64,000 bases of DNA from an uncultured Gemmiger sp. (GTDB lineage: Bacteria; Bacillota; Clostridia; Oscillospirales; Ruminococcaceae). A program made the position numbers and the translations under genes. Under the pieces are notes generated by a model. The model did no database searches. It was not told the DNA's origin and worked only from the letters and a program-made list of their open reading frames with translations. The stretch covers positions 62,001 through 126,000 of the forward strand of contig CALXAH010000002.1 in assembly GCA_944386225.1 (NCBI GenBank), written 5' to 3'. Below are positions 1,594 to 13,087 of the stretch, one piece after another (the stretch's first letter is position 1; every line of letters begins with the position of its first letter).

Positions 1594-4500
1594 TCAGCGG
1601 CACAGGCTGCTGTGCAGGATGGCCCCCTGATGGGCGCAGTCGATGCGCAGGGTCTCGGCAAAGCTGGCGGCGGCGCGGGCGGTATCGCCCAGGCCGTAGC
1701 TGCCCAGACCAATCAGGTAGTGGCAATGGCCCTGGTTGCGGCGGGTCAGATCCTCCTCAAACAGCTGCAGTTCCGGCAGGGACACGGCAAAGTAGTCGAT
1801 CTTGACGGTATCGAACAGGTGCTTCTCGCCGTAGTCCACCAGCTTGTGGAACCGGGCCAGGGCGGCATCCTCCCGGCCCAGGGCGCGGTGTGCCAGGCCC
1901 TGGTACAGGATCATGTCGGCGGGCTGGTCGTTGTAGTACATCATGCCCGCGGGCTCCTCGGTGCCCACGCCGGCGCGCTCGAAGTAGGCCACGGCCTGCT
2001 CCTCGTTGCCCAGCATACGCTCGGCACAGCCCAGCGCGTAGTAGATGTCGTTGTCCTTGGCGCCTTCCAGCTTGCCTTCGCCCAGGTTCTCGGGGAATAC
2101 CAGCGCCTTGAGCAGCAGCTCCCGGGCGCCGGCGGCGTCGCCGGCGTTCAGCTTGGCCAGGCCCATCTGGGTCAGGGCGGTGGCGTACTGCTTGGTCACC
2201 TTGCCTTCGCCGCCCTCCCAGGGATGGAAATGACGGTCCATGATGATGGCGTAGGCTTCTTCATAGCGGCCCAGCAGGTTGAGCAGGGTCACATACTCCA
2301 CGCACAGGTCATCCCGCTTGACCCAGGTATCCGGGTACTTGTCCAGGTTGGCCAGACGCTCGGCGGGGGTCACGCCGGTCTTTTTGTACAGCTGATCCAG
2401 CTCCAGCAGGATGCGGGCATCGGTGGTATCCAGGGCAAAGGCCTTTTCCATGCCTTCGCGGGCGCGGGCGGGATCCTTGGAGTTGTTGAACCAGGTCAGG
2501 GACAGGTTGCGCCACACGGTGGGGAATTCCGGATCCAGTTCGGCGGATTTCTCCCACAGCTGACGGGAAGCCTCGTACTGCTTCTTGTCGTAGTACAGGC
2601 AGCCCAGGTAGTAGGGGGCGCGGGGATCGGCGGGATCGGCCTCGATGGCCTGCTGCAGCACGCACAGATCCTCCAGCTTGTTGGGGAAGCAGTACAGCGG
2701 GCTGCGTCCCTTGGCCTCGGCAAAGGCCTTGCGGCTGGCCTCCTCGTCGCCCAGGCGGGCCAGGTAGGCGCCCTCATAATACTTGAGCATGGGGCTGCCG
2801 GCGGTGCACAGGCGCAGCATGGCCACCGCGGTATCCCACTGACCGGCCTCGGCCAGGTCGATGGCACACTCGATAAAGCTGCTGGCGCGGTTGCCCATCA
2901 GGCGCAGCAGTTCCTCGTGGCCGGCGCCCTCCCACTGGCCCTGCAGATAGCGGGACACATAGCAGAAGGGATCCAGTTCCAGATCGCTGCGCAGCTGATC
3001 CAGAGCCTCCACGCGGCGGCCCAGCTTGTCCAGCAGGATGGCGCGCAGGCTGCGGGCTTTCAGGTTGTGGGCGTTGCGCACCAGGCTGCGCTCCACATGG
3101 GCCAGGGCCTCCCGCCACTCGCCGCGGCGGGCGCTGATGGCGGCCAGGTAGTAGAAGCTCATCTCCTGCTGGGCGGCGGTCCAGGTAGCCTTGTAGAAGG
3201 CGTCGAAGGCCTCGTCGTCACGGCCCTGGTAGAACAGCGCCAGGCCCAGATCGTAGTAGGCTTCGCTGTCGTAGGGGTTGGGGTTCTTCCAGGTCAGGCG
3301 GGCGATGGCGGCGCGGAAGTGCTTCTCCGCCTGGGCAAACAGGCCCCGGCGCAGCAGCAGCAGGCCGTAGCCGGTGTTCAGGCGGATGTCGCCCGGATCA
3401 CGCTTCAGGCCTTCCAGGTAGTAGGGATCGGGATCGTAGGTGGCATGGCGGTACTGTTCCAGATGCTGGGCAGTCAGGTACAGTTCCTCGCAGGTGGCGA
3501 TCTCCTCCGGCTCCTTGGCGGGCTGGGCGGGATCGGGCACCTTGTCCACATGGGGCGCGGCGGCGGTGTAGTCCAGCAGCAGGCGGCCGTCGGCATCGTA
3601 GACCGACAGGGTCAGCTCATGGGCGGCCAGGTCGCCGGTCTCGGCGGTGGTGCAGAGCACCTGGGTGGGCGACAGGTCGTCGGTGCGGTCCAGCCAGGTC
3701 TTGCCGCCGCCGGTCAGGACGGTGCGCACCCCGGCGCGGGGGCCGGTGGCGTAGACCACCACATGGGACACCCCGTCCGCAACTTCCAGGTTCAGCACGA
3801 TCTCGGTGCTGGCGTTCTTGACGCTGCCCGCCTTTTTGTAGGGCATGAAATACTGGGTGAAGGTCTTTTCCTCAAAGGGCTTGAGCCAGGTGAAGTCGGG
3901 CTGGTTGTCGGTGAACATACCGGTCATCAGCTCGATGTAGGGGCCGTTTTCGTCGGTCAGGTTGCGGTCCCAGGCCTTGCCGAAGTCGCCGCAGCCCCAG
4001 GTCCACTGCTTTTTGCCGGGGGACACATGGTGGTCAGCGATGTGCAGGATACCGGCCTCCACCTGGTAGTCATAGCCGCCCACAAAGTTGTAGTCGGAGT
4101 GGTAGGCCATGTAGGAGGTGGGAACCGGAATATTCTTATAACGGCTGATGTCCACGCCTGCGCCGTAGTCGTGCTTGTAGTACACGCCGGTGGCGATGGG
4201 GAAACGGGACACGTCCCGCTTGCCGTGGTCCATAACGGCGGTCACGTCGGGCGGGAAGATGGACTGTGTGTAGTCGTTGACCGGCACCGCGGGGTTGGCC
4301 CACCACAGGAAGGTCTGGGGGGTGTTGGTGCGGTTGTACAGCTGACCCTTGATCTCGATGTAGGCCTTGTCCGGGTAGAGGGTGAAGCTGGCCATGCCCT
4401 TGGTGCCGTACATCTGGTCCACCTCGCTCACCTGCACGGTGGCGCTGCCATCCGGATTGTTCTTCAGCACAAAATCGGTGGGGGCATAGGTGGTGGGCCG

Positions 4501-4878
4501 GTGATGCTGGGGCCAGTTGAACTCGATGCCGCCGCTGATCCAGGGTCCGGTCAGGCCCACCAGCGCGGGTTTGATGACCTCGTTGTAGTACACAAAGTCG
4601 TAGCCGTTGGTCTTGTCATAGGCGCGCTGGATACGGCCGCCCAGCTCCGGCAGGATCATGACCTTCAGATAGTCATTTTCCAGCCAGACCGCCTGATAGG
4701 TCTGATCCTGTTTTTCGTCCAGAATCTTATCAATCACAGGATAGGGATATACACGGCCGGAGCTTCCCTGGTAGACCCGCTTTTCCAAAAACATGGGGTT
4801 GCGGTCCGGTTTGCCCACGCCATAGGTGGGGATGACCAGAGCTTCCTGCCATACACGAACTTTACCCGTTTGCTGCAT
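1594..4878 (-). CDS. DUF5107 domain protein with C-terminal TPR array
   Basis: A 1094-residue protein without a signal peptide or membrane segment, so predicted cytoplasmic. Residues about 30-340 match my recollection of the DUF5107 family (galactose-mutarotase-like beta sandwich): a conserved YLKVMILPELGGRI start and GPWISGGIEFNWPQHHRPT. From about residue 470 onward there are many tetratricopeptide-like helical pairs (AYYDLGLALFYQGRDDEAF, APYYLGCLYYDKKQYEA). No catalytic role is established for the family that I can name. The gene is divergent from an AraC regulator. Its upstream region shares a 27-bp motif with the araG promoter, which ties it to sugar uptake. Function: probably carbohydrate binding or conversion, unproven. 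Confidence 0.85.
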   Translation of the reverse strand: MQQTGKVRVWQEALVIPTYGVGKPDRNPMFLEKRVYQGSSGRVYPYPVIDKILDEKQDQTYQAVWLENDYLKVMILPELGGRIQRAYDKTNGYDFVYYNEVIKPALVGLTGPWISGGIEFNWPQHHRPTTYAPTDFVLKNNPDGSATVQVSEVDQMYGTKGMASFTLYPDKAYIEIKGQLYNRTNTPQTFLWWANPAVPVNDYTQSIFPPDVTAVMDHGKRDVSRFPIATGVYYKHDYGAGVDISRYKNIPVPTSYMAYHSDYNFVGGYDYQVEAGILHIADHHVSPGKKQWTWGCGDFGKAWDRNLTDENGPYIELMTGMFTDNQPDFTWLKPFEEKTFTQYFMPYKKAGSVKNASTEIVLNLEVADGVSHVVVYATGPRAGVRTVLTGGGKTWLDRTDDLSPTQVLCTTAETGDLAAHELTLSVYDADGRLLLDYTAAAPHVDKVPDPAQPAKEPEEIATCEELYLTAQHLEQYRHATYDPDPYYLEGLKRDPGDIRLNTGYGLLLLRRGLFAQAEKHFRAAIARLTWKNPNPYDSEAYYDLGLALFYQGRDDEAFDAFYKATWTAAQQEMSFYYLAAISARRGEWREALAHVERSLVRNAHNLKARSLRAILLDKLGRRVEALDQLRSDLELDPFCYVSRYLQGQWEGAGHEELLRLMGNRASSFIECAIDLAEAGQWDTAVAMLRLCTAGSPMLKYYEGAYLARLGDEEASRKAFAEAKGRSPLYCFPNKLEDLCVLQQAIEADPADPRAPYYLGCLYYDKKQYEASRQLWEKSAELDPEFPTVWRNLSLTWFNNSKDPARAREGMEKAFALDTTDARILLELDQLYKKTGVTPAERLANLDKYPDTWVKRDDLCVEYVTLLNLLGRYEEAYAIIMDRHFHPWEGGEGKVTKQYATALTQMGLAKLNAGDAAGARELLLKALVFPENLGEGKLEGAKDNDIYYALGCAERMLGNEEQAVAYFERAGVGTEEPAGMMYYNDQPADMILYQGLAHRALGREDAALARFHKLVDYGEKHLFDTVKIDYFAVSLPELQLFEEDLTRRNQGHCHYLIGLGSYGLGDTARAAASFAETLRIDCAHQGAILHSSLCR

Positions 4879-4915: not shown

Positions 4916-4978
4916 ATCCTACCACAAACAAGAGGGTTTGTGGTTCTCGTTACTTGCTTACTTATTTCAAAAAATTGC
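4916..4978 (-). promoter_or_regulatory. DUF5107 promoter region with shared AraC-type operator and a dyad
   Basis: On the plus strand 4952-4978 reads ACTTGC, four bases, TTATTTCAA, AAAATTGC. The same arrangement occurs at 9812-9838 upstream of araG. A candidate minus-strand -10 box (TAGGAT, 4921-4916) begins 31 bp from the motif, against 30 bp in the araG promoter. No good -35 is visible, as expected for an activated promoter. An 8-bp inverted repeat (CCACAAAC / GTTTGTGG, 4922-4929 and 4936-4943) lies between them. Regulator assignment to the adjacent AraC protein is inference. Confidence 0.6.
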
Positions 4979-5008
4979 GGTGTTGCTTGGGGAAAATTTC
5001 ATCCCGAA

Positions 5009-5037
5009 TTGACAGGGTTTGCCCGGTAAAATATAAT
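5009..5037 (+). promoter_or_regulatory. Promoter of the AraC regulator gene
   Basis: Perfect TTGACA (5009-5014), 17-bp spacer and perfect TATAAT (5032-5037). Transcription should start near 5044, leaving a very short leader with AAAGGGAGGG as ribosome-binding site. This suggests strong basal expression of the regulator. Confidence 0.88.
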
Positions 5038-5061
5038 GGCAGTAAAGGGAGGGCGATTTCC

Positions 5062-5904
5062 ATGAAGGTATACAGCAAAGGCGTACTGCCCAGCTCGGAT
5101 ATCTACTTCCACACACCCAGCGAAACAGCGCGTAATCTCTTCTTTTATCCGCTCTGTGTGGGGCATTACTGGTGCAGCGGCGAGTACCGGGTGGACCGCA
5201 GCAGCTACAACAGTTATCTGGCCGTTTTCGTGGAGAAGGGAACCGGGTATGTGCAGGTGGACGGCAAGCGCCGGCCCCTTGGTGAAAATTCCGTTTTCTT
5301 GCTGGACTGCTACCAGCCTCACGTATACGGTTCCGAGGAGGGCTGGGAGATCTACTGGCTGCATTTTGACGGCGTTCAGGCACAGGCCTATTTCCGGGCG
5401 CTGTGCCCTTCCGCCAACTGCCTGGTGATGACGCCGCAGGATCCCCGCAGCGTGCGCCGCAGCCTGGTGCGGATCTACAACCTGTTCCATGACCGGGGCA
5501 AGGTGAGCGAGGCTTCGGTGAACAAATACACCGTAAGTTTGCTGACCGATTTCTTTACCGGAAGCCCGGCGGCGGCCGAACGGGGCGAATCCATCTCGGA
5601 AGAGCTGCTCAGCTACATTGCGGAAAACCTGGAACAGCCGCTGACCCTGGCCGATCTGGCGCGGCGCGCTTCCCTGAGCCCCTATCATTTCACCCGGCAG
5701 TTCAAAAAGGAAACCGGCTACACGCCCCACGAGTACATAATTTTTGCCCGGGTCAACGCCGCCAAGTTTTATCTGAAAACCACCACGCTGCCCTCCAAGG
5801 TAATCACCCACAAATGCGGTTTTTCCAGCGAGGCAGCCTTCTGCACCACCTTCAAGCGGATCGTGGGGGTCACGCCGCTGGAATACCGGCGGTCTTCCCT
5901 GTAA
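5062..5904 (+). CDS. AraC-family transcriptional regulator (sugar regulon)
   Basis: A 280-residue cytoplasmic regulator. Residues about 1-150 form an AraC-type cupin sensor (YVQVDGKRRPLGENSVFLLDCYQPHVY, GWEIYWLHFDG). Residues about 180-280 hold the double helix-turn-helix (SLSPYHFTRQFKKETGYTP and CGFSSEAAFCTTFKRIVG). The ATG at 5062 is chosen because AGGGAGGG precedes it; the reading frame is open far upstream, but that stretch only mirrors the opposite-strand gene. It is divergent from the DUF5107 gene and close to the araGHF importer. The repeated motif at 4952-4978 and 9812-9849 is the obvious candidate binding site. The effector is unknown, probably the imported sugar. Confidence 0.93.
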   Translation: MKVYSKGVLPSSDIYFHTPSETARNLFFYPLCVGHYWCSGEYRVDRSSYNSYLAVFVEKGTGYVQVDGKRRPLGENSVFLLDCYQPHVYGSEEGWEIYWLHFDGVQAQAYFRALCPSANCLVMTPQDPRSVRRSLVRIYNLFHDRGKVSEASVNKYTVSLLTDFFTGSPAAAERGESISEELLSYIAENLEQPLTLADLARRASLSPYHFTRQFKKETGYTPHEYIIFARVNAAKFYLKTTTLPSKVITHKCGFSSEAAFCTTFKRIVGVTPLEYRRSSL

Positions 5905-5941
5905 TCCATATATCCCCGGCGGCGGGCAGCCGCCTAAAGCG

Positions 5942-5973
5942 GGAGCGGACCCGGACAGGTCCGCTCCTTTTTT
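5942..5973 (+). terminator. Terminator of the AraC gene
   Basis: A 10-bp stem (5942-5951 with 5958-5967) and six T residues, 37 bp after the stop codon. Confidence 0.9.
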
Positions 5974-5985
5974 GATACCGGTAAG

Positions 5986-6021
5986 GCAGAACGGGCCCGG
6001 CTTCCGCCGGGCCCGTTCTGC
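5986..6021 (-). terminator. Terminator after the sugar-binding protein gene
   Basis: A perfect 16-bp inverted repeat with a TTCC loop, 37 bp past the stop codon at 6059. It is convergent with the preceding terminator, so each gene has its own. The T tract on the minus strand is poor. Confidence 0.75.
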
Positions 6022-6058
6022 GCAAGAGATGTGGTTTTATGGGATTGAATGAAAACGA

Positions 6059-7111
6059 TTACTCAGCGTACTCGCCCATTACTTCCACGTAGTTCTCCGG
6101 GGTCACAACCACGGCGTCCACAGCGGTCTCCATGGGAGGCTCCTCGCCGTTGATCAGCTGCAGCAGAACTTCGATGGAGCCAGCGCCCACGTCCAGAGAG
6201 GAGAAGTAAGCGGAAGCCTTTACGCAGGAGAAGTCCTTCTTGAACTCATCCTTGGCCATGTAGCCGCCCAGGCCTACAACGCAGGCGTTGGCGTCCAGGC
6301 CGGCGCTCTCCAGAGCACGGGCCGCGCCGATGCAGCCTTCCTCGTTGGCGCCGGTGACCAGCCAGGTCTTGATTTCGGGATGAGCGGTGATCACGGCAGC
6401 AGCCTGGGTATTGCCCTTGTCGGTGGTGCCGTCGTAGTCAGCCTTGAAGATGCGGGCGGTGTCGAAATCGGGGCACAGCTCGGTGAACTTGTCGTACTCG
6501 CCCTCAGCACGCGGCACGCAGCTGGACACGGTGTCCATGGTCATGATCAGCAGGCCAACGTCTTCCTTGGTGGCCAGGTCGTTCTCGTTCACGTAGTTGG
6601 CCAGCCACTCGCCGTTGGCTTCGCCGATCTTGTAAGCGTTGATGCCAACCCAGGGAACCAGCTTCTCGCCGTCAACTTCCAGGGCGTCATCGGCGGCAAC
6701 CACGGGGATGCCGGCCTCGTTCATCTTGTCCACAACAGCCTGGGACATGGTCTGGTCAGGTACGCAGGTCACAACGCCGGCAGCCTTGTTGGCGATGGCG
6801 TTGTCCAGAGCCTTCAGGTACTCTTCGGGGCTCATCTTGGCATCCACGTAGGTGAACTCGTAGCCAGCGGCCTCGGCAGCAGCCTTGGCAGCCTCGCCCT
6901 CATCGATGAACCAGGTCTGGTCGCCGGCCTTGTAGATGCCGTAGATCATACCCTTGCTGCCGCCCTCCGTGGCGGGCTCGCTGGTGCTGTTGCCCGCAGC
7001 GGCGCTGCTGCCGCCGGCAGCGGGAGTGCTGCTGGATTCACCAGTGCTGCAGCCGGCCATCAGGCCCAGGCACAGCGTAAGAGCCGTTACCAGTGCAAGT
7101 GCTTTTTTCAT
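6059..7111 (-). CDS. araF: Arabinose-type ABC transporter substrate-binding lipoprotein
   Basis: A 350-residue periplasmic-binding-type lipoprotein anchored outside the membrane: signal MKKALALVTALTLCLGLMAGC with Cys21 as the lipidated residue, then a low-complexity Ser/Gly/Ala linker. The mature part follows E. coli AraF in order: WFIDEGEAAKAAAEAAGYE, the ITCxPD-like VVTCVPDQ, HPEIKTWLVTGANEE, and a C-terminal DAVVVTPENY. The ATG at 7111 is preferred over upstream starts because GGAGG sits nine bases before it and it begins the signal peptide. It is the last gene of the araG-araH-araF operon, 66 bp after araH. L-arabinose is the best guess; another pentose or galactose is possible. Confidence 0.85.
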   Translation of the reverse strand: MKKALALVTALTLCLGLMAGCSTGESSSTPAAGGSSAAAGNSTSEPATEGGSKGMIYGIYKAGDQTWFIDEGEAAKAAAEAAGYEFTYVDAKMSPEEYLKALDNAIANKAAGVVTCVPDQTMSQAVVDKMNEAGIPVVAADDALEVDGEKLVPWVGINAYKIGEANGEWLANYVNENDLATKEDVGLLIMTMDTVSSCVPRAEGEYDKFTELCPDFDTARIFKADYDGTTDKGNTQAAAVITAHPEIKTWLVTGANEEGCIGAARALESAGLDANACVVGLGGYMAKDEFKKDFSCVKASAYFSSLDVGAGSIEVLLQLINGEEPPMETAVDAVVVTPENYVEVMGEYAE

Positions 7112-7177
7112 GTTTGTTTCCTCCAATATGTATTTTTCGCCGGCAAATACCGGCACTCGAACCAGAATAAAGGAAGA

Positions 7178-8164
7178 TCAGGCGTTCTTCTTGCTGGCCT
7201 CCAGCAGGCTGCGCTCACGGTTGCGGCGACGGATGAAGTCAGAGGTCAGAGCGAACAGCAGCAGGCCGCCGCGGGCCACGTACTGCCAGAAGGTGGGGAT
7301 GTTGACCATGGTCAGGCCGGAGTTGAAAGCCTGGATCAGGAACACGCCCAGAACGGTGCCGGTCATGCCGCCCACGCCGCCGCTGAAGGACACGCCGCCC
7401 AGGATAACGGCGGTGATGGCGTCAAACTCCAGGTTGACGTTGGCAGCGGGCTGGCCGGAGTTCATACGGGCTGCGAACAGGGTGCCGCCCAGGGCGCAGA
7501 AGATGCCCATCACGATGTAGCAGATCAGAACAATGCGCTTGGGGTTCAGACCGGCCAGACGGGCCGCGTCCTTGTTGCCGCCGATGGCGTAGACACCGCG
7601 GCCGAACTTGGTCTTGGCCAGGACAAAGCCGAAGGCCACGTAGCACAGGATGGTGATCCAGACGAACAGCGGGATGTCCAGGAAACGGATCTTGCCGATC
7701 CACAGGAAGGTGCTGTCGCTGATGGCGATGGGCTTACCGTCGCAGATGATGTAGGCAAAACCGCGGATCACAGACTGGGTAACCAGGGTGGCGATGAAGG
7801 CCTCCAGCTTGATGCTGTTGACCATCCAGGAGTTGAACAGGCCCACCACAACACCGGCCAGGATGGTAACGATCAGGGCCAGCCAGAAGTTCAGGCCCCA
7901 GCTGACCAGCAGAGCCGCCAGCACGCCGGAGAAGGCCGCCACAGAGCCGGGAGACAGATCGTTCTGGCCGGCGATGATCAGGTATGTATGGCCGATGGCC
8001 ACCAGGCCCACCAGATGGGAGGCCACCAGGACGTTCACAAAGTTTGTCCAGCTGAAGAAGTTGCGGTTCAGCAGGGTGAATACGATATAAACCACGACGA
8101 TCGCACCGATCAGGATCAGCTTGTCGCCGCTGATGATGCCGCTCAGCTTTTTCTTTTCGCTCAT
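7178..8164 (-). CDS. araH: Arabinose-type ABC transporter permease
   Basis: A 328-residue permease of the ribose/arabinose/galactose class, with eight or more hydrophobic segments. It carries the family hallmarks AGQNDLSPGSVAAFSGV near residue 65 and the EAA-like AIGGNKDAARLAGLN loop near residue 195, followed by ITAVILGGVSFSGGVGG. It overlaps the end of araG by four bases, implying translational coupling. It forms the membrane channel with AraG as ATPase and AraF as receptor. Substrate range follows AraF and is not fixed by this sequence. Confidence 0.9.
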   Translation of the reverse strand: MSEKKKLSGIISGDKLILIGAIVVVYIVFTLLNRNFFSWTNFVNVLVASHLVGLVAIGHTYLIIAGQNDLSPGSVAAFSGVLAALLVSWGLNFWLALIVTILAGVVVGLFNSWMVNSIKLEAFIATLVTQSVIRGFAYIICDGKPIAISDSTFLWIGKIRFLDIPLFVWITILCYVAFGFVLAKTKFGRGVYAIGGNKDAARLAGLNPKRIVLICYIVMGIFCALGGTLFAARMNSGQPAANVNLEFDAITAVILGGVSFSGGVGGMTGTVLGVFLIQAFNSGLTMVNIPTFWQYVARGGLLLFALTSDFIRRRNRERSLLEASKKNA

Positions 8165-9678
8165 GCCTTATTCTCCTTTTTCGTTTTTTCCATCATGCCC
8201 AGGCTCAGCAGCCGGTCCTCGGTGGCGTCCTCGCGCATCACTTCACCGGTGATCTCGCGCCCGCGCATCACGATGATGCGGTCGCTCAGGCCGATGACCT
8301 CCGGCAGTTCGGAGGAGATCAGGATCACGCCCAGGCCCTGCTTGGCAAAGTCGCAGATCATCTGGTAGAACTCCGCCTTGGCACCCACGTCGATGCCCTT
8401 GGTGGGCTCGTCCAGGATCAGCACCTTCGGCTCGGTGGCCATCCAGCGGGCCACGATGCATTTCTGCTGGTTGCCGCCGGAGAGCTCCACGATCTTCTTG
8501 TCGGCCGAAGGGGTCTTGATGCGGAAATCCCGGATGCCCTTTGCGGCGGTCTCCTGCTCAGCTTTCCGGTTCAGGATGCCCAGCGCGTTGGAGTGTTTGT
8601 CCAGCAGGGAGATGTTGATGTTATCGGTGATGTCAAGGTTCGCCAGGATGCCCTGCATCTTACGGTCCTCCGGCACCAGAACGATGCCGTTCTTCATGGC
8701 ATGATAGGGCGAACGGTTGTGGATGGGCTTGCCCTCCAGCAGCACCTCGCCGCCGGTCATCTTGTCGGCGCCGATGATGGCGCGCATGGTCTCGGTGCGG
8801 CCCGCGCCGACCAGACCGGAGAAGCCCAGAACCTCGCCCTTATGTAAGGTAAAGGAGACGTCGTCCACATAATCCGAGGAGATGTGCCGCGCTTCCAGCA
8901 GCACCTCGGTTTTGGGGTCAGTATTGCGGTCCAGCTTTTCGTAGATATCGCCCAGGTCGCGGCCCACCATCATGCGGATCATATCCGCTTCGGGGGTGGT
9001 GCGGGCGTCTACGGTGTCCACATACCGGCCGTCCTTGAAGATGGCCACCTTATCGGCGATGGTCTTGATCTCGCTCATACGGTGGGACACGTAGATGATG
9101 ATCTTGCCCTCGCTCTTGAGCTTGGTGATGATCCGGAACAGGCTGTCGATCTCAGCGTCCGACAGGCTGGCCGTGGGCTCGTCAAAGCAGATGACCTTCA
9201 GGTTATCGCGGCTGTAGGCCTTCATGATCTCCACCATCTGCTGGTAGGCGATGCTCAGATCCTTGACCTTGTCGGTCGCCCGGATGGGAAGCCCGAAGTC
9301 CTCAATAATCCGCTGGGCGCTCTCGTTGGCTTTGTGGGTATCGATCATGATCCCCTTGGTCGGCATCCGGCCCAGGTAGATGTTCTCGGCCACGCTGAGT
9401 TCCATCAGGATCTGACGCTCCTGGTAGATTACGCTGATACCGGCTTCGATGGCTTCATGCGGATTGCGAAAATGCGCCGGCTTTCCGTCCACCAGATACT
9501 CGCCCTCGTCCGGCTGATAGTCGCCGTTGAGGGTCTTGAGCAGGGTGGACTTGCCCGCCCCGTTCTCGCCCAGGAACGCCAGCACCTCACCGCTGTGCGC
9601 CTGGAAGCTGACCCCGTCCAACGCCTTTACGCCGGGAAAGTACTTGGTGATCTTCTTGAATTCAAGCGTATGCTGCAC
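8161..9678 (-). CDS. araG: Arabinose-type ABC transporter ATPase (two-domain)
   Basis: A 505-residue tandem ATPase. The N-terminal half has Walker A GENGAGKST near residue 37, a signature-like region around DLSIAYQQMVEI, and Walker B VICFDEPTASLS. The C-terminal half has a degenerate Walker A (GLVGAGRTE), signature LSGGNQQK and Walker B VLILDEPTKGIDVG. MVGRDLGDIY between the halves is close to the AraG equivalent. It is the first gene of the operon. A TATAAT box lies at 9782-9777 and AraC-type direct repeats at 9812-9849, with a weak -35, so it is likely activator-dependent. Confidence 0.9.
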   Translation of the reverse strand: MQHTLEFKKITKYFPGVKALDGVSFQAHSGEVLAFLGENGAGKSTLLKTLNGDYQPDEGEYLVDGKPAHFRNPHEAIEAGISVIYQERQILMELSVAENIYLGRMPTKGIMIDTHKANESAQRIIEDFGLPIRATDKVKDLSIAYQQMVEIMKAYSRDNLKVICFDEPTASLSDAEIDSLFRIITKLKSEGKIIIYVSHRMSEIKTIADKVAIFKDGRYVDTVDARTTPEADMIRMMVGRDLGDIYEKLDRNTDPKTEVLLEARHISSDYVDDVSFTLHKGEVLGFSGLVGAGRTETMRAIIGADKMTGGEVLLEGKPIHNRSPYHAMKNGIVLVPEDRKMQGILANLDITDNINISLLDKHSNALGILNRKAEQETAAKGIRDFRIKTPSADKKIVELSGGNQQKCIVARWMATEPKVLILDEPTKGIDVGAKAEFYQMICDFAKQGLGVILISSELPEVIGLSDRIIVMRGREITGEVMREDATEDRLLSLGMMEKTKKENKA

Positions 9679-9776
9679 TTTCCAGACCCCTTTCTTTTTG
9701 TATCACCGCCGCGCACGGATCTTTTTGCATTTTGCTACAGATTCCCGTCACGGCGTTGACTGTTTTTGTCTCTTTT

Positions 9777-9849
9777 ATTATACCGCTGATTCCCGTCTTG
9801 TCTTTCCAAAAACTTGCGCAGTTATTTCAAAAATTTGCTCTTTATTTCA
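9777..9849 (-). promoter_or_regulatory. araG promoter with tandem AraC-type operator
   Basis: Minus-strand -10 TATAAT at 9782-9777 without a good -35. Upstream, two TTGC...TTATTTCA units (plus strand, TTATTTCA at 9822-9829 and 9842-9849) are repeated directly 20 bp apart. The first unit, 9812-9838, is the copy shared with the DUF5107 promoter. Direct repeats two helical turns apart next to the -35 region are the normal arrangement for AraC-family activators. Confidence 0.65.
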
Positions 9850-9855
9850 GCGCGC

Positions 9856-9884
9856 TTGTGAAATACTCTTTTGCGACGTACAAT
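9856..9884 (+). promoter_or_regulatory. Promoter of the aldose 1-epimerase gene
   Basis: TTGTGA (9856-9861), 17-bp spacer, TACAAT (9879-9884). It is divergent from the araG promoter and abuts the operator repeats, so one regulator bound there could act on both. Confidence 0.65.
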
Positions 9885-9948: not shown

Positions 9949-10947
9949 ATGAATTTTTTCACAAACATGCAAGGCTTTTTAGAGGAACTGCCCAACGAAA
10001 GCGGCTTTTTTCTGTTGGAAACGGACAAGATTCGTATCAAAACGGTTCCAAATGGGGCTTCTTTGTTTCGTGTTGAAGTGCCCGATAAAAACGGTCTATT
10101 TTCAAATATTGCGCTGCCTTTACCCTCTCCGGAGGCCTGTGTGCACAGCGGTACCCACGCAGGGGCCACATTGGGGCCGATTGCGGGCCGTGTGGAGGGC
10201 GGCCAGCTGCAGATTCCCGGCAAATCGCTCCAACTTGCCCAAAATGAGGGGCGCAACCACCTGCACGGCGGGCCCGGCGGACTGTCCCGCCAGGTCTGGC
10301 AGACGGTATGCGCACAGCCGTATCGGGTAATCTACCGGCTGGATCTGCCGGACGGGCTGGACGGCTACCCGGGCAGCCGCACCTTCCGGGTAGGCTATGC
10401 CCTGACCGGGCCCGCCCAGCTGACCATTCACTACCGGGTGGAAACGGATGCGCCGACCCCGGTGAGCCTGTCCAACCATACCTATTGGAATCTGAGCGGG
10501 GATTTTGCCCACCCCTGCACCGGCCATCGGCTGCAGATTGCCGCCCGGCAGGCCTGCTGGAACGACCGGGAGCACCTGCCCCGGGGTGTGCTGGACGTTG
10601 CCGGCACGCCGCTGGATTTCACCCGTCCGCAGGAGCCTGCGCCCCACGCGGAGCATCCGCAGCTGCGCAACGCGCTGGGCTACAACAACGCCTATCTGCT
10701 GGAGGGCTCCCCTGCCGTCCGACTGGAGCACCCTGCCAGCGGCCGGGTACTGACCATGGAAACCGATCTGCCGGCGCTGGTGTTTTACTCCGGCGGGTAC
10801 CTGGAGGGCGAACCGCTGGAGGGCAGCTGTGCCGCCGAGAGCGCCGCTTTCGCCCTGGAACCCCAGGAACGGCCGGGCCTGCCCGCGCTGGTGCTGCCCG
10901 GCCAGCCCTGGGAACGCTGGATCCGCCTGACCTTCTCGGTGGAGTAA
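9949..10947 (+). CDS. Aldose 1-epimerase (galactose mutarotase family)
   Basis: A 332-residue cytoplasmic enzyme interconverting alpha and beta anomers of aldoses. Family marks in order are NEGRNHLHGGPGG (catalytic His region, about residue 100), LSNHTYWNLSG (about 180) and the C-terminal ALEPQERPGLPA holding the catalytic Glu. The N-terminal 40 residues are less typical. I chose the ATG at 9949 because the frame upstream shows no ribosome-binding site; an ATG at 9967 is also possible. It is divergent from araGHF, with which it probably shares control, and converges on the UroD-like gene with only 7 bp between stops. Confidence 0.88.
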   Translation: MNFFTNMQGFLEELPNESGFFLLETDKIRIKTVPNGASLFRVEVPDKNGLFSNIALPLPSPEACVHSGTHAGATLGPIAGRVEGGQLQIPGKSLQLAQNEGRNHLHGGPGGLSRQVWQTVCAQPYRVIYRLDLPDGLDGYPGSRTFRVGYALTGPAQLTIHYRVETDAPTPVSLSNHTYWNLSGDFAHPCTGHRLQIAARQACWNDREHLPRGVLDVAGTPLDFTRPQEPAPHAEHPQLRNALGYNNAYLLEGSPAVRLEHPASGRVLTMETDLPALVFYSGGYLEGEPLEGSCAAESAAFALEPQERPGLPALVLPGQPWERWIRLTFSVE

Positions 10948-10954
10948 GCGCCCG

Positions 10955-12028
10955 TCAGCGGTTTTTCACCGGGTAGTCCCGGCAGGCCTGCACATAGGCC
11001 AGCACGTTCTCCCAGGGTACCTCCGGCTCCAGCATATGGGTGGGGGTGACAAAGAGGCCGCCGTTTTTGGCCACCTCCAGGTTGTGCCAGACTGCCTGGC
11101 GCACCTCTTCCGGCGTACCGAAGGGCATGACCGTCTGGGTGCCGATGGTGCCGTGGAAAGACAGCCGGTCGTGGTACTTTTCGTAGATCGCGGCGAAGTC
11201 CATGCACTCGCTCTGGATGGGGTTCAGTACATCTACACCCGCGTCGATCAGATCGTCGATAAAGGGTTCGATAAAGCCGCAGGAATGGTAGAACACCAGG
11301 ATGTCCGGCCGCTCCGCCTTGACGGTCTGAATCAGGCGGGTCAGGCGGGGCTTGATCCAGGTGCGGTACAGTTCCGTGCTCATCATGATGGTATGCTGCA
11401 TACCGATGTCGTCGCCCAGATACAGGATGTCTACCCCGGCGCGGGCATACAGCAGCGCCCGGGACAGGCTCATTTCGGTGATGCGGTCCAGCAGAACGGT
11501 GGCCATGGGATCGTCGCTCATCATGTCCATCATCAGGTTTTCCATGCCCCGGATGTACCAGGACTGCTCCCAGATGGTCATCTGCATATTGCCCACAGCG
11601 GCCAGGCCCCGGGCCTGCACCGCCCTGACCTTCTCCGCCAGATCCGGGTTGCCCTTTTCGGTATACACCGGCAGCGGGTAGTTTTCAATTTCCTCCACGT
11701 CCTCCGCGCTGTCCAGCGGGTAGAGCATTTTGGTCATGTGCATGGAGCTGGGGGTGGATTCGTGCCCCACACCCCACTCGTCGATGGTTACCCGGTCGTT
11801 CATCCGATGGGCGTGATAGGGCAGGAACCGGTCGATGGTGGGATCGTCCGGAACCAGCGGAATATCCCGCCAGGGGAACCCGAAGTATTCCCGGTAGTCG
11901 GCATTGGGATCACCGGTTTTCTCCCGCAGAACATCCTGCAGGTGGGGGCAGAATACAAATTCCACCGGCTGGAACTCGTAGGGCTGGCGGCGCAGCAGTG
12001 CCAGCAGGTTTTCGCGCTGAGTCATCAT
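10955..12028 (-). CDS. Uroporphyrinogen decarboxylase-family protein (not HemE-like)
   Basis: A 357-residue TIM-barrel protein of the UroD superfamily. A zinc-site-like HSCG motif (VFYHSCGFIEPFIDDLIDAG) near residue 245, LGDDIG near 205 and GTIGTQTVMPFGTPEEV near 290 place it with the methyltransferase-like MtaA/CmuA and uncharacterised branches rather than haem-pathway HemE. Corrinoid- or thiol-methyl transfer is a possibility; the substrate is unknown. It is divergent from a second AraC regulator, which suggests catabolic rather than tetrapyrrole duty. Either ATG of the initial pair (12028 or 12025) could be used. Confidence 0.82.
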   Translation of the reverse strand: MMTQRENLLALLRRQPYEFQPVEFVFCPHLQDVLREKTGDPNADYREYFGFPWRDIPLVPDDPTIDRFLPYHAHRMNDRVTIDEWGVGHESTPSSMHMTKMLYPLDSAEDVEEIENYPLPVYTEKGNPDLAEKVRAVQARGLAAVGNMQMTIWEQSWYIRGMENLMMDMMSDDPMATVLLDRITEMSLSRALLYARAGVDILYLGDDIGMQHTIMMSTELYRTWIKPRLTRLIQTVKAERPDILVFYHSCGFIEPFIDDLIDAGVDVLNPIQSECMDFAAIYEKYHDRLSFHGTIGTQTVMPFGTPEEVRQAVWHNLEVAKNGGLFVTPTHMLEPEVPWENVLAYVQACRDYPVKNR

Positions 12029-12193
12029 AGTCGGTTCATCCTTTCGCTCGGGCAGCGCCCTTTATTGACTTCATTGTAACATCCACCGCCGTTGCTGGCT
12101 TGCCGAAAACGGAAAACTCTTATACTTTTTTGCTATTTTAGGAACACAGACGCCTCATATTATGGTATACTATATATAAAAAAGGAGACGAAT

Positions 12194-13087
12194 GTGTTGA
12201 AAGATGACGCCACAACGCTGCTGTTTCACAGTTCCGGTCTGGGGCAGGCGGGCAGCGCTTCGGTGAAGGCGCTGCCCGCGGACTACACCTTTGCCCCCCA
12301 TCTGCACGCCGAGGCGGAGATCAACTGCTGCCTGTCCGGGCAGGCGGTGATCACGCCGGACGGCACACCGATAACGCTGGAGCCCGGGCAGTTTCTGCTG
12401 CTGTATCCGGAAGTGCCTCACGGGGCTGCCAGCCAGGAGGGCTGTGTACTGCTGCAGATGCATTTTCAGCCCGGGCGGTTTCAGCTGCCGCTGAGCGACC
12501 GGCTGCGGGAACAGCAGCTGTATTTTCCGCTGGACCTGGTGCTGGGACGGCGGCGGTATTTTGTGGGCGAAACCACCCCGCAGCTGCGGGATACGGTGGA
12601 TTATCTGCAGCAGGAGCTGCACAGCCGGCAGCCCAACTACCAGCAGATGTGCGAGCTGTACCTGCTGCAGCTGGTCATGCTGCTGAGCCGCCAGATCGGC
12701 CGGGAGGACGGGCCGGGCGGCACCCTGCGCAACCGGCATCTGGTGGTGGCGGCGGAATACATTGCCGCCCACTATCCGGAAAAGCTCTCGGTGGAGCGGG
12801 TGGCCCAGGAATGCGGCATCTCGGCCCGGCAGCTGAGCGGGCTGTTCCGCCGGGAGCTGGGGGTCAGCCCGGGGGCCTACATCACCGGCATCCGAATCAG
12901 CCGGGCCATCCAGCGCGGCGGCGCTGAGGGCGGACGGCTGCCCCTGGACCGGCTGGCACTGGAATGCGGTTTCAGCAGCCAGCAGCAGTTCTGCCGGGTT
13001 TTCAAGGCCTATGTGGGCATAAGCCCGGGCCGCTATTTCTCCCACCGTCAGGGCAGCGGCGCCCGCTACGATGCCGCGCCTTTTTGA
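12194..13087 (+). CDS. AraC-family transcriptional regulator
   Basis: A 297-residue regulator starting at GTG 12194, selected because AAAGGAG lies seven bases upstream. An out-of-frame ATG at 12192 would stop after two codons. The N-terminal cupin (FAPHLHAEAEINCCLSGQAVITPDGTPITLEPGQFLLLYPEVPH, shown in part by APHLHAEAEINC) is typical of sugar-sensing AraC proteins. The C-terminal 100 residues hold two helix-turn-helix units (CGISARQLSGLFRRELG and CGFSSQQQFCRVFKAYVG). A -10 box TATACT is at 12166-12171. It is divergent from the UroD-like gene, its most likely target. Confidence 0.9.
   Translation: MLKDDATTLLFHSSGLGQAGSASVKALPADYTFAPHLHAEAEINCCLSGQAVITPDGTPITLEPGQFLLLYPEVPHGAASQEGCVLLQMHFQPGRFQLPLSDRLREQQLYFPLDLVLGRRRYFVGETTPQLRDTVDYLQQELHSRQPNYQQMCELYLLQLVMLLSRQIGREDGPGGTLRNRHLVVAAEYIAAHYPEKLSVERVAQECGISARQLSGLFRRELGVSPGAYITGIRISRAIQRGGAEGGRLPLDRLALECGFSSQQQFCRVFKAYVGISPGRYFSHRQGSGARYDAAPF

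Follow-up and report, generated by a model that had tools for sequence, protein, structure and literature searches.

A conserved tandem AraC-type site at the promoters of a DUF5107 gene and an AraFGH-like transporter operon in an uncultured Gemmiger sp.

The locus and its two tandem sites

We analysed a 64,000-nucleotide stretch of the genome of an uncultured Gemmiger sp. (assembly GCA_944386225.1, contig CALXAH010000002.1, positions 62,001 to 126,000; the whole stretch is called the window below), in which the gene for an AraC-family regulator sits between two sets of predicted targets, a divergent gene for a DUF5107-TPR protein and an operon for an AraFGH-like sugar transporter, and in which a tandem site of about 42 bp recurs at the promoters of both (Table 1). 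The genome (G000, 3.38 Mb) belongs to the same genus as Gemmiger sp. An120, and the locus of its sister genome is L025. The DUF5107-TPR protein scored 197.9 bits against PF17128, for which the gathering cut-off is 24.4, and is a member of that family, which is one of unknown function going by its Pfam name. In the regulator, HTH_18, HTH_AraC (in two stretches) and AraC_binding all scored over their cut-offs, placing the protein in the AraC/XylS family; against the model of the arabinose operon regulator AraC (NF007860) it reached 58.2 bits, short of the cut-off of 208. As with E. coli AraFGH, the best-scoring NCBIfam models for the transporter are AraG and AraH, and the closest PDB sequence to its substrate-binding protein (SBP) is the L-arabinose-binding protein. 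Both the AraG and the AraH score fall below the NCBIfam cut-offs for equivalogs of the L-arabinose transporter, and in the SBP alignment E14 and N232, two of the positions that we take to be ligand contacts of the L-arabinose-binding protein (K10, E14, D90, R151, N205 and N232), are, unlike in E. coli AraFGH, not kept. A preliminary description of this DNA, made from the letters alone, had named these genes araGHF; given the AraG and AraH scores, we speak of an AraFGH-like transporter and do not adopt that name for a proven arabinose uptake operon.

The preliminary description had also pointed to a 27-bp motif shared by the two promoters. The 27-mers at 4952-4978 and 9812-9838 match exactly (mean of 0.00 in 100 shuffles) and have the same orientation with respect to their targets, both of which are read from the minus strand. 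Read on the target strand, each 27-mer comprises one whole 21-bp half-site and the opening letters of another in direct repeat, following the pattern GCAA-N2-TTT-N2-AAA-N7 and then GCAA-N8-AA, such that the motif was correct as a sequence and too short as a unit, the complete site consisting of two tandem half-sites. From the 27-mer to the -10 box we measured 30 bases at the DUF5107 promoter and 29 at the araG promoter, within one base of the 31 and 30 bp given earlier. The half-motif said to be repeated 20 bp away at araG does recur there as a second TTATTTCA, and three tandem 21-bp units, the outer one imperfect, can be made out in the region. The statement that both promoters are without a -35 fits that of DUF5107 better, since the araG promoter has a -35-like AAGACA with a 4/6 match and 16-bp spacing.

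Table 1. Coordinates of features at the locus, in window positions
Feature	Position	Strand	Basis or remark
DUF5107-TPR protein, 1094 aa, predicted target 1	1594..4878	-	PF17128, E 2.6e-58
DUF5107 promoter, -10 box TAGGAT, TG-N extended	4916..4921	-	57 bases from first GCAA
DUF5107 promoter, predicted AraC half-site 2, GCAAGTAACGAGAACCACAAA, over -35 position	4937..4957	-	matrix analysis
DUF5107 promoter, predicted AraC half-site 1, GCAATTTTTTGAAATAAGTAA on minus strand	4958..4978	-	held-out score 37.4, best of the window
araC gene promoter, consensus sigma-70, TTGACA-17-TATAAT	5009..5037	+	promoter search
AraC-family regulator, predicted activator	5062..5904	+	AraC_binding domain plus two HTH
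AraF-like substrate-binding protein	6059..7111	-	domain and PDB sequence searches
AraH-like permease	7178..8164	-	AraH model 266.4 bits, cut-off 378
ATPase (AraG-like) of sugar ABC transporter, predicted target operon 2, first gene	8161..9678	-	AraG model 624.2 bits, cut-off 689
araG promoter, -10 box TATAAT	9777..9782	-	56 bases from first GCAA
araG promoter, predicted half-site 2, GCAAGTTTTTGGAAAGACAAG	9797..9817	-	matrix and pattern scan
araG promoter, predicted half-site 1, GCAAATTTTTGAAATAACTGC	9818..9838	-	exact 27-mer match and matrix
Imperfect third tandem unit at araG, ACAAGCGCGCTGAAATAAAGA	9839..9859	-	sequence reading; similar unit in sister genome (L025)
Aldose 1-epimerase (GalM-like)	9949..10947	+	divergent from araG promoter; own promoter abuts site

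On its outer side, each site borders on a further promoter: the motif at 4952-4978 ends 30 bp ahead of the perfect araC promoter, and the third araG unit overlaps a -35-like hexamer (9856-9861) belonging to the promoter of the divergent galM. A perfect 8-bp inverted repeat, CCACAAAC-N6-GTTTGTGG (4922-4943, plus strand), lies between half-site 2 and the -10 box of the DUF5107 promoter; it was matched in 10 of 110 loci, all at the DUF5107 promoter of this or the sister genome, and is possibly the operator of a second regulator. Beside galM, a URO-D family gene is divergent from a second AraC-family gene (10955-13087) and carries no site. A second DUF5107 protein is encoded in the genome outside the window (G000:C2:154667-155143, L097), and DUF5107 was also detected in the E. 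coli control genome. PDB entry 5cd6, a TPR-domain containing protein listed without a functional name, matches region 46-350 of the DUF5107 profile (E 9.9e-21) and has 580 aa as against 1094 aa here.

Conservation beside relatives of the regulator

Relatives of the AraC protein were analysed at 13 of 23 loci, those with a near full-length match (38-92% identity), with flanks of 8 kb at most; the other ten (L038-L047, partial or with 23-39% identity) were left out. The 13 loci come from Gemmiger, Marasmitruncus, Anaerofilum, Fournierella and Anaerocolumna as well as from metagenome-assembled genomes of other groups, including Treponema and Synergistaceae. An order-level search for the AraC protein in 394 genomes at E 1e-75 matched this genome and its sister alone. 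A site is present near the AraC gene in 12 of the 13 relatives. Where the AraC gene is divergent from a DUF5107 gene, the site stands at the DUF5107 promoter in every case (seven of seven: L025, L026, L027, L030, where it is weak, L034, L035 and L037). The araG promoter carries it in L025 and L026, and the L027 sequence ends before that promoter. With a different neighbouring gene the site still accompanies AraC, the site-bearing neighbour being a GH2 gene in L031 (nearest model exo-beta-1,4-galactosidase, below its cut-off), a 413-aa URO-D-like gene in L032 and L033, and a URO-D-family gene in L036. L034 and L035 have a second site ahead of an operon that encodes a sugar transporter and has a GH36 gene last. 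The earlier suggestion that the AraC protein is the natural regulator of both promoters thus gains support, as the sites follow the AraC gene even when the neighbouring target differs. Conservation upstream of orthologous pairs, proposed beforehand as a check, held between species whose AraC proteins are 36-57% identical to this one, and the proposed link between the DUF5107 protein and sugar uptake is likewise strengthened by the occurrence of the same site at both promoters and its retention in relatives.

We scored 18 sites, those of the window and of the 12 loci (near relatives included: window/L025, L032/L033 and L034/L035), with a 42-bp matrix in a leave-one-group-out design, the tested group being excluded and the matrix made from sites of other species. 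Each of the 18 ranked first, or first and second, within its own sequence, in a test that is only partly independent for a reason given below. Counted from the first GCAA, the -10 box starts at 56-57 bases in 15 of the 18 sites and at 59 bases in two, with none convincing in L028 (ties in the -10 search were resolved toward offset 58), and it is a perfect TATAAT in 12, the -10 box not being part of the matrix. The GCAA is repeated at 21 bp in 16 of the 18, the second unit reading ACAA in L030 and GTAA in L033, and the hexamer 17 bp ahead of the -10 box is poor in most. The sites therefore show both traits of a class-II site: a pair of direct half-sites spaced by about two helical turns, and a downstream half-site at the -35 position with a fixed distance to the -10 box. 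When only the 27-bp motif of the window was used as a stricter test on 12 non-sister loci, the AraC-linked site was the top match in nine (L028 among them), tied in L036 with a 6-mismatch match before araG, and second in L030; no site was found in L029.

Further sites in the genome and the family

The preliminary description had allowed that the motif might prove frequent at random, which is not the case in this genome: at three mismatches or fewer, the 27-mer matched twice in the 3.38 Mb, these being the two window sites, and the reversed-pattern control matched nowhere. A refined core pattern gave nine matches (two exact, seven with two mismatches) compared with one in the control, and the core combined with TATAAT at two spacings gave two matches and one match, with none in the control for each. 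One of the seven 2-mismatch matches is a third site, scoring 21.3 on the matrix and, apart from the two window sites, alone in its correct spacing to a -10 box; the remaining six loci reach 11.0 at most. It lies on contig 1 at 247772-247834 (G000:C1:247772), with a TATAAT at offset 57, and stands outside the set from which the matrix was made. The third site precedes a gene for a 413-aa protein which is 92% identical to the AraC-divergent, site-bearing Fournierella gene of L032, and the sister genome has a like site before a 98% identical gene. Against the URO-D model (PF01208) the 413-aa protein reached 13.8 bits, short of the cut-off of 23.9, and it stayed under the cut-off of every model tried; we therefore call it URO-D-like only. 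The small regulon described at the outset thus includes its two promoters and is predicted to have at least one further member outside the window.

Contig 5 holds a paralogous module (L060 6411-9813; G000:C5, about 42.4-45.8 kb) with a 38% identical AraC gene, a URO-D-like gene (17.2 bits where the cut-off is 23.9) and an AraF-like SBP gene. Upstream of both the SBP gene and the URO-D-like gene are GCAG-type forms of the site, with matrix scores of 12.2 and 3.9, respectively (11.8 and 14.4 in the sister genome), and a plausible -10 box was seen by eye for the SBP gene alone.

Across 297 family genomes, the 27-bp motif with at most three mismatches was found 18 times in 15 genomes, compared with six control matches (hand count). 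Five of these are in this and the sister genome, one is at the AraC relative of G258, and the 12 elsewhere score 15.1 or less on the matrix, except for one of 23.8 (L013, no -10 box seen). A gene-blind scan of the same genomes with the longer-spacing core plus TATAAT returned 67 matches compared with 23 in the control (hand count); all eight matches with two mismatches or fewer outside the genus were inspected, and the 55 with three mismatches in part. Three of the eight belong to this regulon (G153, G177 and G044), G153, with one mismatch, being the same locus as L032 and hence not independent. In G177 (one mismatch), the match lies at a DUF5107 promoter divergent from an AraC gene whose product is 36% identical to the window AraC, with a GH2 gene after the DUF5107 gene, and in G044 (two mismatches) it marks a further AraC/DUF5107 promoter; both regulators have AraC domains. 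Another two, at two mismatches each, are tandem GCAA sites between a different AraC-type gene and a gene for sugar use, namely an FGGY kinase gene, a rhamnulokinase by eye, in G049 (L108 1733-1774, plus strand) and a GH4 gene in G214 (L088 942-983, minus strand). The remaining three (G159, G024 and G157, two mismatches each) are of neither kind. Among the 3-mismatch matches, that of G015 (L110 2503-2544, minus strand) is found ahead of a sugar ABC operon from which an AraC-type gene runs divergently.

Predicted regulation, inducer and alternative readings

From the observed sequences, geometry and conservation of the sites and their co-occurrence with AraC and sugar genes, we infer binding, activation, a ligand and a function for the DUF5107 protein. 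The AraC protein (5062-5904) probably binds the tandem half-sites and, with a sugar ligand, activates as a class-II regulator. A dimer would occupy the two direct half-sites 21 bp apart, the downstream one lying over the -35 position, and the sugar-bound protein would bring RNA polymerase to promoters with a -10 box and, for the most part, no good -35. The predicted regulon would comprise the DUF5107-TPR gene, the AraFGH-like transporter operon and the URO-D-like gene of contig 1, and the araG site may also serve galM, which runs divergently from the transporter.

Two reports (PMC4760080, PMC7499043) describe E. coli araI1-araI2 as adjacent operators by a promoter to which AraC with sugar recruits RNA polymerase. 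Here, too, two adjacent sites stand next to the promoter, although the half-site sequence differs (GCAA...AAA); unlike in E. coli araBAD, araC is divergent from the DUF5107 gene, and the arabinose isomerase gene (araA) is on contig 4, where the pattern scans of the genome found no site. The E. coli pair has a tandem 21-bp layout and overlaps the -35. The half-site of the MarA/SoxS marbox has GCAC and then AAA at a similar spacing, but the marbox is one site whereas here there are two tandem half-sites.

As for the ligand, the preliminary description had left arabinose and galactose side by side, and we favour the galactose type. Galactose, or a sugar that contains it, is the most likely inducer in view of the GalM-like neighbour, the GH36 and GH2 genes among the targets in relatives, and the SBP resembling the arabinose-binding protein. 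SBPs of that kind also bind galactose. AraA scored over its cut-off in all 11 genomes searched (in G664 with an open frame of 62 aa), and a galactokinase was found in nine of the 11, over the cut-off in three, the match in this genome being below it.

Several observations weigh against the predicted regulation by this AraC protein. The pattern with which the sites were initially chosen had been composed by eye from several loci, for which reason the matrix rank test is only partly independent, and with the motif of the window alone just four of the 12 non-sister loci exceed all 100 shuffles. The relative in L029, whose contig ends about 0.9 kb past araC, is the one of 13 that has no site. In L028 the site (8869-8893, minus strand), a strong one, is directly downstream of araC, points at araC and has no convincing -10 box; about 230 bp from it, on the opposite strand, is the start of a sugar ABC transporter operon. 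The araG promoter of L036 resembles the motif just at the level of six mismatches and has no site that convinces, and the neighbour of the Gemmiger 413-aa gene is a LacI-type regulator rather than AraC. Finally, the similar sites at G049, G214 and G015 suggest that the site shape seems to be common to a wider AraC-type group. As the shape is not unique to the 5062-5904 protein, adjacency and co-occurrence carry part of the assignment.

These last sites, adjoining other AraC-type regulators of the family, would also fit an alternative in which the sites are of AraC type and are read by another AraC-family protein of the cell, such as the one encoded at 12197-13087 or the contig 5 paralogue, which is 38% identical and has GCAG-type variants of its own, or are shared among several such proteins. 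We consider this unlikely. At 12 of the 13 loci the co-occurrence is with the clade of the 5062-5904 protein; the 12197-13087 protein has a best-match counterpart in the sister genome alone among the 13 loci (within flanks of up to 8 kb), and the sites of the paralogue are mostly GCAG rather than GCAA.

A comparably small chance, in our view, is that the AraC protein acts at these sites mainly as a repressor or looping regulator and not as a class-II activator. The araG promoter retains the weak -35-like AAGACA and a third half-site-like unit, and E. coli AraC without sugar represses through looping, according to the same two reports (PMC4760080, PMC7499043). Nevertheless, the distance from half-site 2 to the -10 box is nearly fixed and the hexamer 17 bp before the -10 box is mostly poor, for which reasons activation fits better than repression. 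That the two promoters, which are near each other and highly alike, match by chance or through a recent local duplication without regulatory meaning can be dismissed as very improbable, given that their flanks differ, that the site persists in species in which AraC identity is 36-57% and that the -10 spacing is conserved.

Beyond activation by the 5062-5904 protein, one may speculate that a single, unrecognised pathway acts on a modified galactose-type sugar, such as a galactoside bearing O-methyl or other substituents, which AraFGH-like transporters take up. The DUF5107-TPR and 413-aa URO-D-like proteins would both be enzymes of it, this AraC clade would be its dedicated regulator across several bacterial lineages, and the contig 5 module would serve a second such sugar, an idea to which we give a low probability.

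We found no report of such a regulon in Ruminococcaceae, or of a link between URO-D-family proteins, galactose and AraC, in the open-access literature searched, and an earlier report elsewhere is possible. The original observation of a shared motif was right and understated. The type of regulation is ordinary, and what is new is the placing of two families without assigned function in a sugar-use regulon. The conserved predicted activator site joins the DUF5107 and 413-aa URO-D-like proteins to a sugar transporter, an epimerase and galactosidase-type hydrolases, and sharing a site with sugar genes provides a testable handle on the function of both proteins. For the DUF5107 protein, the site would tie it to the use of galactose-like sugars.

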